A stretch of DNA of 10,497 nucleotides, from assembly GCA_023256295.1 (NCBI GenBank), contig JAGDXH010000058.1, positions 4,827 to 15,323 on the forward strand, written 5' to 3'. Positions 397-7,180 of this stretch are shown piece after piece. The notes beneath the pieces were generated by a model. It was not told the DNA's origin. It searched no databases and saw nothing but the letters and a program-made list of their open reading frames with translations. Numbering within the stretch: the first letter of the stretch is position 1; the number at the start of each line of letters is the position of its first letter. The DNA is from Thermoproteati archaeon. GTDB lineage: Archaea > Thermoproteota > Thermoprotei_A > Marsarchaeales > UBA168. Made by a program: the position numbers and the translations under genes.

Positions 397-909
397 ATGG
401 ACATTGAGCTCTTGAAAAGAAAGTCCTTGCGCGCTCTATTCGTAGAAAGCGTGGCTTTGACGGATCTACTCAACCTCAACAGGCTGGCAGATGGCCAGAC
501 GCGCAAACTCATCCAGCCAATGATATTCGACACATATCTCCACGCCGCTATAATGAGGGGGATAGTTGAAGCTGCTGAGAAGACAGAGCAAGCCATGCGC
601 GAGGAAGGAGGCAAGGCAAGCGCAGAAAGGCTGGCCGAGCTTCTTGAAGCACAAGACCAAGATGAGGCTGAGGCTCTGGCATTTTATGAGCAAGCTTCCC
701 AAGAGCTGGAATCAAATTTCCTGAGGGAATTGTTCTCGACCATTGCCGAGGACGAAAAAACCCATCACAAGATCTTGCTCAACGCGAAGTCAGGACGGAA
801 GCTTGACCAAGATCTTCGAGGCTTCAACCTGACCGGCGGATACGTCAAGAGCCAGCAAAAACGCGAAAACAGGCTTGTCAGACAGGCGCGAAGACCGAGT
901 CAGCGGTGA
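397..909 (+). CDS. Ferritin-like (rubrerythrin-type) diiron protein with basic C-terminal tail
   Basis: The product is 170 residues from ATG 397; a GTG at 379 would add six residues. The fold looks like a four-helix ferritin-like bundle. Helix 1 spans about 9-30 (E17), helix 2 about 36-68 (D45, H49), helix 3 about 88-105 (E92) and helix 4 about 109-130, the last carrying the classic ExxH (E120, H123). The second helix has D45/H49 rather than a clean ExxH, so the metal site may be atypical. Residues 131-170 leave the bundle and form a tail rich in Lys and Arg. Known relatives bind a diiron centre and act in peroxide or iron handling; the specific role here is unknown. The start has no clear Shine-Dalgarno sequence and lies about 20-25 bp after a weak CTTTAG AT-box, so it may be leaderless. 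The 3' end overlaps the convergent helicase gene by 10 bp. Confidence 0.7.
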   Translation: MDIELLKRKSLRALFVESVALTDLLNLNRLADGQTRKLIQPMIFDTYLHAAIMRGIVEAAEKTEQAMREEGGKASAERLAELLEAQDQDEAEALAFYEQASQELESNFLRELFSTIAEDEKTHHKILLNAKSGRKLDQDLRGFNLTGGYVKSQQKRENRLVRQARRPSQR

Positions 910-3623
910 TCATCCCAGAAGGGCTTTGTCTCTAAGTACTTCGACCTCGCGGCCTGAAGCTCTTGAAAGAACTCGTCTTCGTCCAGCATGCGCGAAAGTA
1001 TCCTGAAGGCCGTCTCAGGTCCTATGCCGTACACCGATAATGCCTCAGCTCCTCTCTTTCCGTATAGCGTGAGCAGGTCGGCGGACCTCTTGGCTTCTGA
1101 AATGACCTTGCGGTCATCAGGAGAAAGCTGCCCTTCGGCCTTCCTCGCGACAACCTCTTTCAGCATTTCAGTGCGCCTTGGACCAAAGACGGGAGCCAAC
1201 ATCGTGGACCCGCAGCGCGGACATGGTCTGGCTTGGTAGGCATCGACCTTGCACGTGCAGACCGTTTCACCGCAGTTGAGACAAACAAGTGACATCTGCG
1301 ATGAGAGCACGAAGCCCCTGAAGAGATCCAAAGGGCTTTCGCTTGAAGGGAGCTCCGCCAGCATGACTTTTCTCAGAGAATATTCCGCAAGAGGGCTTGG
1401 ATCTCCTTGGATCTTGGACGATATCTCCACGTTCCCACTCCTTATACCATCGAGTAAACCCTGGAGCAAGCGAAGCGAAACTCTGGTCTCAAGGCCTTCC
1501 CTTAAGGCTTCCTCGTACACCGGGGTACCCCTAAAGGCATGAGGCAACCTTTCGACCTGCCCCTCAAAAGCCATGCCTTTTCCAAGCATCCCGAACCTCT
1601 CTGCCACGAACTTCATCTGATAGGAAAAGGGAAACCTATCTTCGAAGTACGCGGTCATCCAATCCTTGATGTCATCCGGTGGGTACAAGAACTGCCTTTC
1701 AACCTCAGGCACAAAGTGTGGTGCCTCGGCATACAGCTCGAGCACCACCCGGTAGGCGTTGGACCACCAGTAGCGCAGGCTGTCCCTCAATCTGGACTCG
1801 AGGTAAAAGCCCAATGCCCGATTCCCTGCGTCGCCAAGGGCGACGTGCACCACCAAATAGTTTCCGCACGCCTCGAGCACTACGAACTCTTCCGACGGCA
1901 GCTTCATCCCAGCGCTCAGGACCAGTTGGTTTTCCCGCTCCAGATCTTCGGCCAGCAGTTGCCTGCTGTCTGGAGAGACGAACTCAAGCTTTGGAGCGAC
2001 CCGGAGCTCGGTGGCCCTCTTTGCGACCTCCCGAGATACGAAAGCCATCTCTCCGTCCCAACCAGGAATCGCCGGCTGACCCTGCGAGCTGCGCACGAGC
2101 ACCCGTTCGTCTCCTTGGATTGGTTTTCTAGAAACCTCCCACGTACGACCTCCAAGAACGAGTTTCATGCCTTGATACAGCCGCGTGTACACGAACTCCA
2201 TCCCCAGCGATCCAATCCTAGAACCCGTCGACTCATCTATCACAGGATACAGCTTTTCGTCGTTTATCATGGACAAATTCTGGAGATAAATCAACCTACC
2301 TCTCTTTGTGATGCTCAGCTTCCCGTCCTCAACTTTGACCAACTTTGCCCTTTCCATGTAGTTGACCAGTGAGGACAATTTTTCTGTGCCGAGCTCAAAG
2401 AAAGGCTGGCAGTCCAAGAGGAGCGAGAATAGCTCCTTCAACTCCTTGGGGCCATCCTCGCCCTCCATCGCCATGCCAAGGAGCTGGTGAGCTGCCACGT
2501 CGAGAGGCCCCTTCGGTAACTGAGGCGGCTCCAAGTACCCTTCTTCTGCCAGGCTCAGGATGCTCATGGACTCTAGAGCATCCTCTACCGAGAAAGTCAA
2601 GATCTCCCCTCTCGAACGCATGGTGAGAGAGTGACCGCTTCTGCCCAGGCGCTGGACAAAATCCTGCACCCTTCTTGGGGACATGTATTGAACGACGTAG
2701 TCGACGTCGCCAACGTCGATCCCAAGTTCAAGCGTGGAGGTTGCAATCACAGACTTCACCTCCCCACCATTGAACATGGCTTCAACGTGTTCGCGCTCAA
2801 GGCGCGAAAGAGATCCGTGGTGGACAGCCACCGGGGCAACAGTCATGAGAGCATGGCCCAGCTCCTCAACTATCGTCCTGCTATTTGCAAACAAGATGCA
2901 ACGATGTTCTTCCAACAGACGAGTTAGTCTCTCCAGCCTCTTTTTCCCCGAGAGGTCGTCGCCGAGATACGTTATGGTGCACTGCGGTTCCCTGAAGGCG
3001 TTGGGCCTAATCACGCGCACCTTTCTTGAAAAGATGTATCTTCCCATGTCTTCAGGGCTTGAGACGGTTGCCGAAAGACCGATCGCCTGATACCTCCCTG
3101 CAAGCTTTTCCAGACGCTTCAGGCCTACCGACAGTTGGGCACCCCTCTTTGTGGGAGCTAGCTCGTGAAGCTCATCGACGATGACCCACTTGACGCCCCG
3201 CAGACTTTTTTCCCAGCTGGGGGACACCAACAATGCCTGAAGGGTCTCAGGAGTCGTGATCAGCATGTCAGGAGGAGACAAGGCCAGTTCCTTCCTGATG
3301 CGGGCAGGCGTATCTCCGTGTCTAACAGCCACGCTTAGGCCCAGCCTATCCCCCCACCACGTCATCCTAGGCAGCAGGTTTCTGTTCAGCGCCCTCATAG
3401 GAGAGATGTAGAGGAGTCTCAGACCCCTTTTGTTTTCTTCCAGCATCTTGCAGAGCAGAGGGAGAAGTACGGCCTCTGTTTTTCCTGATCCAGTAGGTGC
3501 TATCAGAAGAAGATCTTCTCCTGATAAGACAGCTGGTAAGGCCAGCTCCTGAACCGGGTTCAGCTGCCCAAAGCGGGCGCGGACCAGCTCATCCACTTCT
3601 CCGCAAAGAGTCTCAGAGACCAA
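900..3623 (-). CDS. lhr: Lhr-like superfamily 2 helicase (archaeal aLhr type)
   Basis: This is an ATP-dependent nucleic-acid helicase of the Lhr family, 907 residues from TTG 3623. That start follows GAGGG with a 6-nt spacer; a TTG at 3638 (912 residues) has no ribosome site. From N to C: Q-motif Gln25; Walker A APTGSGKT at 42-49; Walker B/DExH as DELH at 150-153; SAT at 184-186; motif V around ATSTLELGID; motif VI QRLGRSGH at 324-331. A long Lhr-specific region follows. Near the C-terminus six cysteines (781, 784, 789, 791, 801, 804) form a CxxC-CxC-CxxC cluster, probably zinc-binding. It is followed by an HhH-like YGIGPETAFRIL segment and the family's terminal FW. The cysteine cluster and tail fit an archaeal aLhr1-like protein, which acts in DNA repair or RNA handling; the subgroup is inferred. 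It lies 45 bp after ctaB on the same strand, so it is probably co-transcribed with the oxidase genes. The last 10 bp overlap the convergent ferritin-like gene. Confidence 0.9.
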   Translation of the reverse strand: MVSETLCGEVDELVRARFGQLNPVQELALPAVLSGEDLLLIAPTGSGKTEAVLLPLLCKMLEENKRGLRLLYISPMRALNRNLLPRMTWWGDRLGLSVAVRHGDTPARIRKELALSPPDMLITTPETLQALLVSPSWEKSLRGVKWVIVDELHELAPTKRGAQLSVGLKRLEKLAGRYQAIGLSATVSSPEDMGRYIFSRKVRVIRPNAFREPQCTITYLGDDLSGKKRLERLTRLLEEHRCILFANSRTIVEELGHALMTVAPVAVHHGSLSRLEREHVEAMFNGGEVKSVIATSTLELGIDVGDVDYVVQYMSPRRVQDFVQRLGRSGHSLTMRSRGEILTFSVEDALESMSILSLAEEGYLEPPQLPKGPLDVAAHQLLGMAMEGEDGPKELKELFSLLLDCQPFFELGTEKLSSLVNYMERAKLVKVEDGKLSITKRGRLIYLQNLSMINDEKLYPVIDESTGSRIGSLGMEFVYTRLYQGMKLVLGGRTWEVSRKPIQGDERVLVRSSQGQPAIPGWDGEMAFVSREVAKRATELRVAPKLEFVSPDSRQLLAEDLERENQLVLSAGMKLPSEEFVVLEACGNYLVVHVALGDAGNRALGFYLESRLRDSLRYWWSNAYRVVLELYAEAPHFVPEVERQFLYPPDDIKDWMTAYFEDRFPFSYQMKFVAERFGMLGKGMAFEGQVERLPHAFRGTPVYEEALREGLETRVSLRLLQGLLDGIRSGNVEISSKIQGDPSPLAEYSLRKVMLAELPSSESPLDLFRGFVLSSQMSLVCLNCGETVCTCKVDAYQARPCPRCGSTMLAPVFGPRRTEMLKEVVARKAEGQLSPDDRKVISEAKRSADLLTLYGKRGAEALSVYGIGPETAFRILSRMLDEDEFFQELQAARSKYLETKPFWDDHR

Positions 3624-3668
3624 GATCGTCCCTCGCAAACTGCAGGTTTTTTCAACGCTTGGCGCAGC

Positions 3669-4520
3669 TCAGCGAACCAGCAATGCAATCAAGGAAACCC
3701 CCAGAAAGATGCTCGCAAACGTCCTAGCGAAGCGAAGGTACTGCTTCTTGTCGAGGATTAAGGCTTCGTACAGAGCATAGGTGAGACCGGCGAACATGCC
3801 GCCTGCCACTGCCGGCATCAAGAAAGAGGCCACGCCCATGAGCGCAAGCTCAAAGGAAGCCAGTTCAAAGGCGGCCAAGGCGAAGAACAAAGTCAAAAAA
3901 ACCGTCCTCCTTCCGGCCTTAAAAGGAACCATCGGGATTCCAGCCTCCAGGTAGTCTCTGTAGTTGACCAAAGATATCACCCATGTGTGAAGAGGTATCC
4001 AGAGCATTATCATAGAGAACAGAAGTAGTCCTCCGCCAGCGAAGGCTCCCTCCCTCGCCACCCAGCCTCCCAGTATGGGCATGCCTCCAGCCAAACCTCC
4101 AAAAAGTATATTTGTAACAGACCTCCTCTTCAGAAAAAGCGTATAGACCCATATGTCGAAGAAGTACCCAAGGAAGATAGTAAGCGCGAAGATCCAGTTG
4201 ACAAAGATCGACAGAACTATCCCCAAGCCAAGCAGCACATAACCAAAGGCAAAAGCCCACGCAGGCTGCATCCTACCTGAAGGGATGGGCCTGGACCTCG
4301 TCCTACTCATCAAGGAGTCTACGTGACGATCGTGATACATGTTTATGGACGTCGTACCACTCACCGCCAACAGCTCTGAGACCAATACCAACGCAAGGCT
4401 TGAAGGCAAGAACCTACCAGGCGCCGCGAGATATCCAACAAGGGCCGTGAAAACAAGCATGGTGGTTTGAGGGATCTTGCAAAGCGAGATCAAGTCGCGG
4501 GCCAAGACCAAATCACTCAC
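3669..4520 (-). CDS. ctaB: UbiA-family prenyltransferase, heme O synthase (CtaB/CyoE)-like
   Basis: This is a membrane enzyme expected to transfer a farnesyl group from farnesyl diphosphate to heme B, giving heme O. From GTG 4520 it has 283 residues and about 8-9 hydrophobic segments. The first Asp-rich motif is N60-x3-D64-x3-D68, followed by RTRSRPIPSGR, the usual UbiA signature. CtaB-specific features are YTLFLKRRSVTNI at about 126-138, GGLAGGMPILGGW at about 141-153, H178/W180, and RDYLEAGIPM at 188-197. The last motif is very typical of heme O synthases rather than of menaquinone or geranylgeranyl transferases. The usual PPHFW is PLHTW here. The GTG lies inside the cydA' stop (GTGAGTGA), so translation should be coupled. 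TTG 4511, preceded by GGTGAG, and TTG 4556 are alternative starts. No CtaA (heme A synthase) is present in the window. A different acceptor cannot be excluded. Confidence 0.8.
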   Translation of the reverse strand: MSDLVLARDLISLCKIPQTTMLVFTALVGYLAAPGRFLPSSLALVLVSELLAVSGTTSINMYHDRHVDSLMSRTRSRPIPSGRMQPAWAFAFGYVLLGLGIVLSIFVNWIFALTIFLGYFFDIWVYTLFLKRRSVTNILFGGLAGGMPILGGWVAREGAFAGGGLLLFSMIMLWIPLHTWVISLVNYRDYLEAGIPMVPFKAGRRTVFLTLFFALAAFELASFELALMGVASFLMPAVAGGMFAGLTYALYEALILDKKQYLRFARTFASIFLGVSLIALLVR

Positions 4521-5661
4521 CCCCTGAAACCTTATTTCCTGGCAGCTTTGAGACAAAGACCAGATAAATCATGTACGAGAAGGCAGCCATGAGGACCGCA
4601 CCGACGGCAAGCGCTGCCACAGCGAAGACCTGAGGGATATCCATCCAATGGTTTATAAAGAGAGAGGCCGGCAATCCTCCCGTCCCCGTGATCACCATGT
4701 AAGGATAACGAGGCAGGTCGTTCAGCACTTCTCCGTATGGAACACCAACCAACACCGACACCAAAAGCACCCAAGAAGAAGCCTTCTTGGCCCAGTCGAA
4801 TGCCTGATGAAGGACGTTGAATATGGAAGCCGCCCAGATCAAGGTCACGATTCCCATGAAGCCAACGAAAGCAGGATAGAGGTGAAAGTACGTGCTCAGC
4901 GAAGTGGCACTCAGAGGCCCAAGAACGGAAGAAGCCACGTAAGGACTATACTTGTCCAGTTCCAGAGCGTAGGCTGCACCAGATATGGAGGCCAAGAGAA
5001 GGGCTGGAAGGCCAACGTAAAGTCCGAACTTTGAGGCCTTCAGGTAACGCTTCTCACCGGTTGAAGCCTTCAGAGAATAGATGGCTGAGATGGCCAGCGC
5101 AGCCATGCTGATCGCAGCCGTTATGCGATGAAACGTGAAGTCTGGATAGAGGGGGTTTGCAAAAACAGCCCAGCCGTTGCCGTGCAGAGCCCCAGCCATG
5201 CCAACCGGATCATCCAAAAAAGCGAATATCATGTTGAAACCTGTGGGTACTAGCATGGCCCCAAGCGCCATGAAGCTGCCGATCGCTATGTGAAGCTTCT
5301 TCGAGACCGTGTCCCAGGTGTACCAGTACACTGCCATGAGCGGGATGCCAAGCATGACCCCAAACAACGCGATGGTAAGCGGATAAAATAGAACGTCAGT
5401 TGCTATGAAAGTGAGCTGAGGCCAGAACCCGGCCAAGGCCACGGTGAACCACGTCGCCCAAACTCCCGCGGCCAACTCGCTAACGGCCATGTACTTCAGC
5501 GTATCCTTGGCCACAGCTTCGAGCTCTTTGTCTCCTGTCCTGTAGGCCCAGTACTCAATAATCGGAGCCATCACGGCCAGCCCAAGTACGAGACTGACCA
5601 AAAATATGTGGGCCACTATGGTGACGCCAAGCATCAAGAAGCCAATCCACACAGACGTCAT
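4513..5661 (-). CDS. cydA': CydA' - CydA paralogue forming subunit II of a CydAA' cytochrome bd-type oxidase
   Basis: This is a 382-residue polytopic membrane protein. By position one would expect CydB, but the sequence follows the CydA fold. H18 sits in HIFLVSLVLG, aligning without gaps to E. coli CydA around its heme b595 ligand H19. YWYTWD at 112-117 matches the CydA GWDR helix end, and FHRITAA with H178 matches the helix holding H186. The two CydA proton-path glutamates are absent: G105 takes the place of E107, and no Glu lies nearby. The GRxPW motif is degraded to PRYPY. In Archaea such a paralogue pairs with CydA to form CydAA'; the Caldivirga maquilingensis enzyme is an active quinol oxidase containing only b-type hemes. 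The ATG overlaps the cydA stop (ATGA), with GGAGG 10 nt upstream, so translation is coupled. Identification as CydA' rather than CydB rests on these alignments by eye. Confidence 0.82.
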   Translation of the reverse strand: MTSVWIGFLMLGVTIVAHIFLVSLVLGLAVMAPIIEYWAYRTGDKELEAVAKDTLKYMAVSELAAGVWATWFTVALAGFWPQLTFIATDVLFYPLTIALFGVMLGIPLMAVYWYTWDTVSKKLHIAIGSFMALGAMLVPTGFNMIFAFLDDPVGMAGALHGNGWAVFANPLYPDFTFHRITAAISMAALAISAIYSLKASTGEKRYLKASKFGLYVGLPALLLASISGAAYALELDKYSPYVASSVLGPLSATSLSTYFHLYPAFVGFMGIVTLIWAASIFNVLHQAFDWAKKASSWVLLVSVLVGVPYGEVLNDLPRYPYMVITGTGGLPASLFINHWMDIPQVFAVAALAVGAVLMAAFSYMIYLVFVSKLPGNKVSGGE

Positions 5662-7154
5662 TCGTTCTTCGCCTCCAGAAATTCCTGCACCTGAGACCTA
5701 ACCAGCCAAAGAATGGCTGCCGTCCCAACCACGAATATCAACAGCTCAAGGAGCATGATCGCGGCTACGAAGGCCGGCGTTATGGGGACAGGCGTGACAA
5801 CGTCGTAGTAAGGGATCAAACCGTACACGGTCCAAGGGTGCCTCCCAACTTCCCTCACTGCCCAGCCAGCCCCTCCAGCAAACATGGATATGATGACACC
5901 TGCAAATGAGGAAAGCAGCAGGAACTTCTCTACGCCCAATCCAAGTGATGAGAATAAGCTCTCTAGAATTCCCGCAAGTCTAGCGGAAAAGGAAGCAAAA
6001 TACACGGCGGCCAGGATGAAAAGGACGATTCCAGATATGACCATGCCGTAGTAAAGCGGAAAGATCAAGGGCTCAGCTTCCTCAGCTCCGAGCACCGTCG
6101 CGCGGGCCGCCGATGGAATCACCGAAGAACTCGTCTCAGACAGAAGGGTGCTGAACCCTGGGAAGAAGTACGTCGGGTTACCCTTGAGGAGAATGCCAAG
6201 CACTGGGTTTTGGCCTCCCTGCGGCGGAAAACCCTCTGCTGCTAGGAACTTGGTATACTGGTAAGCATACTCCACCCTTCCAGCCATGTCTCCAAAGAGC
6301 GGCTGAAGAATGCTGGCCACCGCTGCCACCCCAAAGCTCTTCCTGAAAAGCCCGAGGAATTCCGCTCTTCTATTTGGATCTCCGCGGAAGTAAAGATATG
6401 CCAGCACAGAAGATACTTCAAAGGACACCACTATGATCGCCGCGTCCACCGTGTGCAAGAACGTTGCCGGGAGATCAGGGTCAGAAAGAATCACCATGGG
6501 AGATGTCAAGATCCTACCCAGCGAGTTTCCGAGAGTAACGTTGCTGAGGGCTGACGAACCCCTTGTGCTCAAGGCTGCCGCTAAAGCCAAAAGAGCGCTC
6601 AGGTTGGAGGCCTGCGGCCCGTAGGTGACCTTCTCCCAAGGAAGTACCCGGTCCAAAAGTGTTCCAGTCCCCCAAGGGACGTTCATGAACGAGTTGGCTC
6701 CTAGTATCATGAACGCACTCACGTTTGAGCCAAGAAGCACAATCAAACCAAACAGCCAGTGAATCCATCTGTAAGCGTATCTGTCCCAAGTGTATATGTA
6801 GAGCACGACAAAAACGACCTCAGTCATGAAGGCAAACAACTCTAAGAACATCACGGAGAACATGTAAGTACCTATGGCCGCCAAGCTACCAGACCACACC
6901 TGCACTAGCCCAAACTCGACGAGCGTCCCAGTTGCTGCCCCAGCCGCAAAGGAAACCCCCCACACGTAGCTGGTCTTCCTTGCTGCAGTCAGGTAAACGG
7001 CGTCCCTATGCCTTATACCAACCCATTCAAAGACCAGCACAACGTAGGGTAAGCCGACCGCAAACACCAAGAACCACGCGTGAACGTATATGCCCAAGAT
7101 GGTCATGTATTCGGCCAAGTTCGCCTGAGAAGCCGAAGATAGCAGGACAAGCAC
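5658..7154 (-). CDS. cydA: Cytochrome bd-type quinol oxidase subunit I (CydA of a CydAA' enzyme)
   Basis: This is the catalytic membrane subunit that oxidises quinol and reduces oxygen to water. From GTG 7154 it has 498 residues. E. coli positions recognisable by eye are: H25 (H19, heme b595 ligand); E105 and E112 near YIYTWDR (E99/E107 region); GSNVSAF; H234 in FLHTVD (H186) and M371 in YYGMV (M393), the heme b558 ligands; W431/E435 and GRHPW at 437-441 (W441, E445, GRQPW). K302 and E307 keep the spacing of the quinol-site K252/E257. The Q-loop is short: 69 residues from Lys to Met, against 141 in E. coli. About 43 extra residues precede H234. A TTG at 7169 is also in frame but sits against the TATA box, so GTG 7154, about 22 bp from the box centre, is the likelier leaderless start. 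It is the first gene of cydA-cydA'-ctaB-lhr. Confidence 0.9.
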   Translation of the reverse strand: MLVLLSSASQANLAEYMTILGIYVHAWFLVFAVGLPYVVLVFEWVGIRHRDAVYLTAARKTSYVWGVSFAAGAATGTLVEFGLVQVWSGSLAAIGTYMFSVMFLELFAFMTEVVFVVLYIYTWDRYAYRWIHWLFGLIVLLGSNVSAFMILGANSFMNVPWGTGTLLDRVLPWEKVTYGPQASNLSALLALAAALSTRGSSALSNVTLGNSLGRILTSPMVILSDPDLPATFLHTVDAAIIVVSFEVSSVLAYLYFRGDPNRRAEFLGLFRKSFGVAAVASILQPLFGDMAGRVEYAYQYTKFLAAEGFPPQGGQNPVLGILLKGNPTYFFPGFSTLLSETSSSVIPSAARATVLGAEEAEPLIFPLYYGMVISGIVLFILAAVYFASFSARLAGILESLFSSLGLGVEKFLLLSSFAGVIISMFAGGAGWAVREVGRHPWTVYGLIPYYDVVTPVPITPAFVAAIMLLELLIFVVGTAAILWLVRSQVQEFLEAKNE

Positions 7155-7167
7155 ACCGTCGCACCGC

Positions 7168-7180
7168 AAAAAAATTTAAG
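7168..7180 (-). promoter_or_regulatory. TATA box for the cydA operon, fused to a T-run that can end the upstream ACT gene
   Basis: Read on the minus strand, CTTAAATTTTTTT lies 15 nt after the stop of the ACT-domain gene. The TTAAATTT part is centred about 22 bp before GTG 7154, where an archaeal TATA box of a leaderless transcript would be. The seven consecutive T residues (7174-7168) also match the U-rich tracts at which archaeal RNA polymerase terminates. The two roles are inferred from position and composition only. Confidence 0.6.

Follow-up and report, generated by a model that had tools for sequence, protein, structure and literature searches.

The closest described relative of the system discussed here is the archaeal oxygen reductase CydAA', reportedly defined by Murali, Gennis and Hemp in 2021 as the product of two adjacent genes, one for CydA and one for a CydA paralogue. 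The enzyme of Caldivirga is said to show quinol:O2 activity with b-type hemes. The reviews, in their accessible parts, have the bd superfamily using hemes b and d. Here we analyse a 10,497-nucleotide stretch of DNA (the window; contig JAGDXH010000058.1, positions 4,827 to 15,323) from an archaeal assembly of 750 kb and 69% completeness (GCA_023256295.1). Across the whole window, the minus strand carries cydA, cydA' and ctaB, which code for oxidase subunit I, subunit II and a heme O synthase (Table 1). As in the type reportedly described by Murali et al., the source is archaeal and CydA and a paralogue are encoded by two adjacent genes. The window keeps H178, D315 and R318 in CydA' and has ctaB beside cydA'.

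The gene directly downstream of the complete cydA would by position be called cydB. In agreement with the initial annotation, it encodes a CydA paralogue and not CydB. CydA' matches the Pfam CydA profile PF01654 with 84.5 bits (cut-off 26.2, E 7e-24, profile positions 6-243 of 418), whereas a Pfam search with E up to 1 gave no match to the CydB profile PF02322. Among PDB sequences, only 5doq_A, a CydA chain, matches it at E up to 1 (E 1.8e-7), and the predicted structure has the CydA fold along its full length. CydB chains have the same overall fold as this model. The profiles, the PDB match and the predicted fold rule out CydB as the identity of the second gene. In the tree, the CydA' rows group together, apart from CydA, in a clade with support 100/100, with long branches flagged. 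With a paralogue downstream of a complete cydA, and this clade, the enzyme very probably belongs to the archaeal CydAA' type, as had been proposed. The label "degenerate", which the annotation gave to subunit II, is misleading: conserved CydA' proteins occur in archaea that the records assign to Thermoprotei, Thermoplasmata and Archaeoglobus. The window shares with canonical CydAB a subunit I in which no ligand or quinol residue is missing, and the overall fold of both subunits, and differs from it in having a CydA paralogue as subunit II. The CydAA' observation is correct and mostly already known; what merits following is the adjoining heme O synthase gene, together with the ligand groups of CydA'.

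This third gene, ctaB, was absent from the initial annotation. Its product scores 211.6 bits on the heme O synthase model TIGR01473 (curated cut-off 210.3), three heme O synthase models rank top, and the best model of any other kind reaches 62.1. The relatives in two further genomes of the genus, G001 and G002, score 222.9 and 219.1. The motif N-x3-D-x3-D-x2-M-x-RT and the later motifs LKR and P-x-H-x-W, which are those of heme O synthases, are all kept, as in known CyoE/CtaB proteins. It could be supposed that the substrate prenylated by the product of this UbiA-family gene is not heme but a quinone, or some other electron carrier used by CydAA'. The score is barely above the cut-off, and the accessible part of PMC12542729 reports that archaeal quinones were not detected in its two Tardisphaera strains, possibly being below detection. 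Against the lead of the heme O synthase models, the higher scores of the genus relatives and the motifs, we consider this improbable.

Genes for heme A and heme O biosynthesis are ordinarily linked to those of complex IV, beside which they lie (PMC9287336, accessible part). By contrast, the window has its ctaB next to the genes of a bd-type oxidase, and searches of its genus revealed no heme-copper oxidase gene. The four genus genomes, all of them incomplete (62-80%), gave no COX1 match; loss of this gene by chance from all four assemblies would have a probability of about 0.5% if the losses were independent. Three of these genomes yielded cydA', and each has the order cydA-cydA'-ctaB, which in G002 includes a gap of about 0.3 kb. 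G003, the fourth (77% complete), gave no cydA' and no ctaB scoring near the cut-off. Searches of the genus genomes for CtaA were likewise negative, but little weight attaches to this result, as the model fails in the control Sulfolobus acidocaldarius too.

The co-occurrence of ctaB with CydA' was surveyed in 144 other genomes of the window's class, each at least 85% complete, and evaluated with Fisher tests. CydA' was counted as present at 270 bits or more, ctaB at E up to 1e-30 and COX1 at E up to 1e-3, this last threshold being 1e-20 in a second class, that of genome G154. Genomes without a match, which are partly listed, were counted from totals. G068, which holds a broken CydA' fragment, was counted as lacking CydA', and G000 was left out of the tests. 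Of the genomes lacking any COX1 homologue, 14 of the 15 that have CydA' also have ctaB, against 6 of the 72 without CydA' (p 1e-10). Twelve genomes have a best COX1 E value of about 1e-24 to 1e-28, and were called nitric oxide reductase-like by score alone; when these weak homologues are allowed, the figures become 26 of 27 against 6 of 72 (p 4e-17). Heme-copper genomes of the class, with which G131 (COX1 E 3e-44) and G153 were counted, have ctaB in 44 of 45 cases. The class of G154 (283 genomes) gives a similar comparison: ctaB is found in 4/4 genomes with CydA' and no COX1, in 18 of the 166 others without COX1 (p 2e-4), and in 110 of the 113 that have COX1.

The adjacency of ctaB, and its co-occurrence with CydA' where no heme-copper reductase is found, suggest that native CydAA' may carry heme O. 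CtaB would then prenylate protoheme, and at least one site of the native enzyme would be occupied by a heme of the O type; we judge this slightly less probable than its opposite. The Caldivirga enzyme, which is reportedly active with b hemes only and so speaks against it, is also said to have been expressed heterologously, so that the hemes found in it do not decide which cofactor the native enzyme uses.

The alternative is an ordinary CydAA' with protoheme only, in which ctaB serves another heme protein such as cytochrome b or nitric oxide reductase, or remains from a lost heme-copper oxidase. The reported activity of the Caldivirga enzyme with b hemes alone agrees with this, as do the weak COX1 homologues, by score nitric oxide reductases, in 12 of the 27 CydA' genomes. 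It is less easily reconciled with the 14 of 15 CydA' genomes that have ctaB and no COX1 homologue, with the adjacency of the two genes in a genus where COX1 was not found, or, as a weak point given the failed control, with CtaA not having been found there. We regard it as almost an even proposition.

Several further observations weigh against native heme O. Among 15 loci with a cydA-cydA' pair, ctaB adjoins the pair only in two, both from the window's genus, and not in the loci seen outside it, as the protoheme alternative would have it; one locus, L030, is uninformative in this respect, its contig ending right after cydA'. In three other genomes the neighbours of ctaB are MoaA-like genes or a gene without a Pfam match. 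The CtaB proteins associated with CydA' were not found to form a single clade in the tree, and that possibility was rejected. The counts are not independent, the 27 CydA' genomes belonging to 12 genera, and the p-values treat them as more independent than they are. G126 (98% complete) has CydAA', and ctaB was not found in it, again as expected for an enzyme with protoheme only, though its CydAA' genes are on a 6.6-kb contig that could be foreign. G021, which has neither COX1 nor CydA', holds ctaB in two frames, below threshold, and counting it would give 7/72. The 18 genomes of the class of G154 mentioned above have ctaB without COX1 or CydA', and one of them, G413, has CydA and a CydB-like gene, so the link of ctaB may be with bd-type oxidases generally, or with something else. 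Cytochrome b, and any CydAB in the 72 comparison genomes, are possible other users of heme O.

The G413 locus (L176:2183-4547) encodes CydA and a second subunit that scores 20 bits on PF02322 (cut-off 35.6); ctaB is present in the genome, and there is no COX1 at E up to 1e-20. A hidden CydAA' case was rejected here, as the 160 kb inspected contain a single CydA with its CydB-like neighbour.

The residues of CydA' bear on whether subunit II itself binds heme. In a profile-profile alignment with E. coli CydA (probability 99.6 local, 99.9 global), H18 aligns with H19 and H178 with H186, in agreement with the initial annotation. Between residues 62 and 203 there is no Glu, and both proton-path glutamates, the counterparts of E. 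coli E99 and E107, are lost, as was also noted there. In the global alignment the C-terminal motif G-E311-V-L-N-D315-L-P-R318-Y-P320-Y falls on G-W-x3-E445-x2-R-x-P-W of CydA, with D315 on E445 and R318-Y-P320-Y on R448-Q-P450-W. The earlier statement that GRxPW is lost is therefore too strong: the canonical motif is degenerate but not absent, RYPY remains, and an acidic residue occupies the place of E445, which we take to be the b595 ligand.

Residue frequencies were counted in 164 CydA' rows, which reduce to 127 distinct ones; adding the window, a duplicate of one of these, gives 128; P0093-P0119 were left out of this count. H18 is present in 128/128 rows, and E311 and P320 each in all 127 rows that reach that position. 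H178 occurs in 29 of the 128, the others having mostly Lys, Ser or Tyr, and residue 315 is Asp in 29 of the 127 rows with a letter there. H178 therefore cannot be a ligand needed by the whole family, and as a general CydA' heme ligand it is ruled out. Of the two histidines that the annotation placed at heme-ligand positions, it is H18 that holds family-wide.

Alternatively, CydA' could, like CydB, play a structural role without heme, with H18 and E311 conserved because they serve packing or the binding of a quinone. The variation of residues 178 and 315 among groups, and the overall fold shared with CydB chains, would suit this explanation. The invariance of H18 and E311 in the rows seen, and the position of H18 on heme ligand H19, argue the other way, and we place it a little short of an even chance. 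Heme binding by CydA' is plausible from the alignments, on residues (H18 and E311) other than the H18/H178 pair proposed earlier, and we regard it as evenly balanced whether a single heme site persists near H18 and E311/D315.

On the tree, CydA' falls into three groups, H/D, K/S/A and Y/N; residues 178 and 315 differ between groups. For the tree, 86 rows were used, without the truncated P0081 and without some two thirds of the database proteins assigned to K/S/A. The H/D group comprises the window, its genus, G033, G061, G063, G075, G126 and relatives from the class of G154. The K/S/A group has Q318 (support 97/98), and by protein names and residues includes Acidilobus, Caldisphaera, Pyrodictium and Archaeoglobus. 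The Y/N group, with R318, consists of five rows placed inside the H/D side. The window CydA' is placed among sequences from the class of G154, whereas the window genome is classed otherwise, which suggests lateral transfer. Caldivirga CydA' was not placed in any group: no protein of that name is among the database matches, which are mostly nameless. At loci L115-L119, a CydA' group with Tyr or Phe at 178 and Asn at 315 is found alongside COX1 in genomes from the class of G154.

In subunit I, the profile alignment shows H30, E110, E117, H239, K307, E312, M376, E440 and GRHPW kept, at the respective E. coli places H19, E99, E107, H186, K252, E257, M393, E445 and GRQPW. In E. coli CydA we take H19 to be a heme ligand, E99 and E107 the proton path, K252/E257 the quinol site and M393 the b558 ligand. 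Judged by these positions, CydA has the full catalytic set, namely the ligands of three heme sites, the proton-path glutamates and the quinol-site Lys and Glu. The last two are kept although quinones were undetected in Tardisphaera in the accessible part of PMC12542729. The CydA proteins of L045, L047, L048, L050, L054, L055 and L056 have Lys at the place of M393, where the window CydA has Met.

On the basis of these observations, we hypothesise that cydA, cydA' and ctaB together make and equip an oxygen reductase of the CydAA' type. CydA would take electrons from a quinol-like carrier and reduce O2 to water, and CydA' would be a duplicated CydA without proton path and quinol loop, standing in the place of CydB. 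In its widest form the proposal is that CtaB provides archaeal CydAA', in its native state, with hemes of the O type (farnesyl or geranylgeranyl), a third cofactor type of the bd superfamily beside hemes b and d, that the b-only content of the Caldivirga enzyme is an effect of heterologous expression, and that CydA' holds a further heme at H18/E311. This combination we put forward tentatively, as rather less probable than not. If CydAA' does use heme O, the cofactor range of bd-type oxidases would be wider, and finding a heme O synthase gene in an archaeal genome would cease to indicate a heme-copper oxidase. The finding also offers a direct test of the function of the duplicated subunit.

A published parallel is found in PMC12542729, in whose accessible part CydAA is reported, within its order, exclusively in Tardisphaeraceae; two Tardisphaera genomes lack cytochrome oxidases, while the sister family has bc1 and aa3. 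The oxidase is of the same type as in the window, and the family pattern fits that of family f1 against its sister f2, so the window probably belongs to Tardisphaeraceae. The lineage resembles published fermenting relatives, and removal of O2 is the probable role of the enzyme. In the accessible main text of that paper, ctaB, cyoE, farnesyl and UbiA do not occur, and among the accessible parts of the papers returned by literature searches none was recognised as linking ctaB or heme O to CydAA'.

Table 1 Features of the cydA-cydA'-ctaB locus, in window coordinates
Feature	Position	Strand	Remarks
cydA	5658..7169	-	oxidase subunit I, 503 aa from TTG at 7169; PF01654 219 bits
cydA'	4513..5661	-	subunit II, CydA paralogue, 382 aa
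ATGA overlap, cydA stop / cydA' start	5658..5661	-	
codon H18 of CydA'	5608..5610	-	place of E. coli H19
codon H178 of CydA'	5128..5130	-	place of E. coli H186
codon E311 of CydA'	4729..4731	-	invariant acid, one helix turn before D315; aligns to Trp of CydA GWxxxE
codon D315 of CydA'	4717..4719	-	place of b595 ligand E445, global profile alignment
codon R318 of CydA'	4708..4710	-	starts RYPY, remnant of GRxPW
ctaB	3669..4556	-	heme O synthase; TIGR01473 211.6 bits

For cydA, the start at 7154 chosen in the initial annotation is also possible. From their ATGA overlap, cydA and cydA' are likely to be translationally coupled. When read from its TTG at 4556, ctaB overlaps cydA' by 44 bases; alternative starts are at 4520, 4511, 4505 and 4493, and with any of the last three there is no overlap. 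Downstream of ctaB, window positions 900-3638 encode an Lhr-like helicase (DEAD, Helicase_C, WH_Lhr and DEAD_assoc domains). A rubrerythrin-like protein is encoded near the oxidase genes at 379-909 (PF02915, 30.6 bits), and in G001 a peptide methionine sulfoxide reductase gene follows ctaB (L043:7581-8234); these two neighbours fit an oxygen-defence setting.
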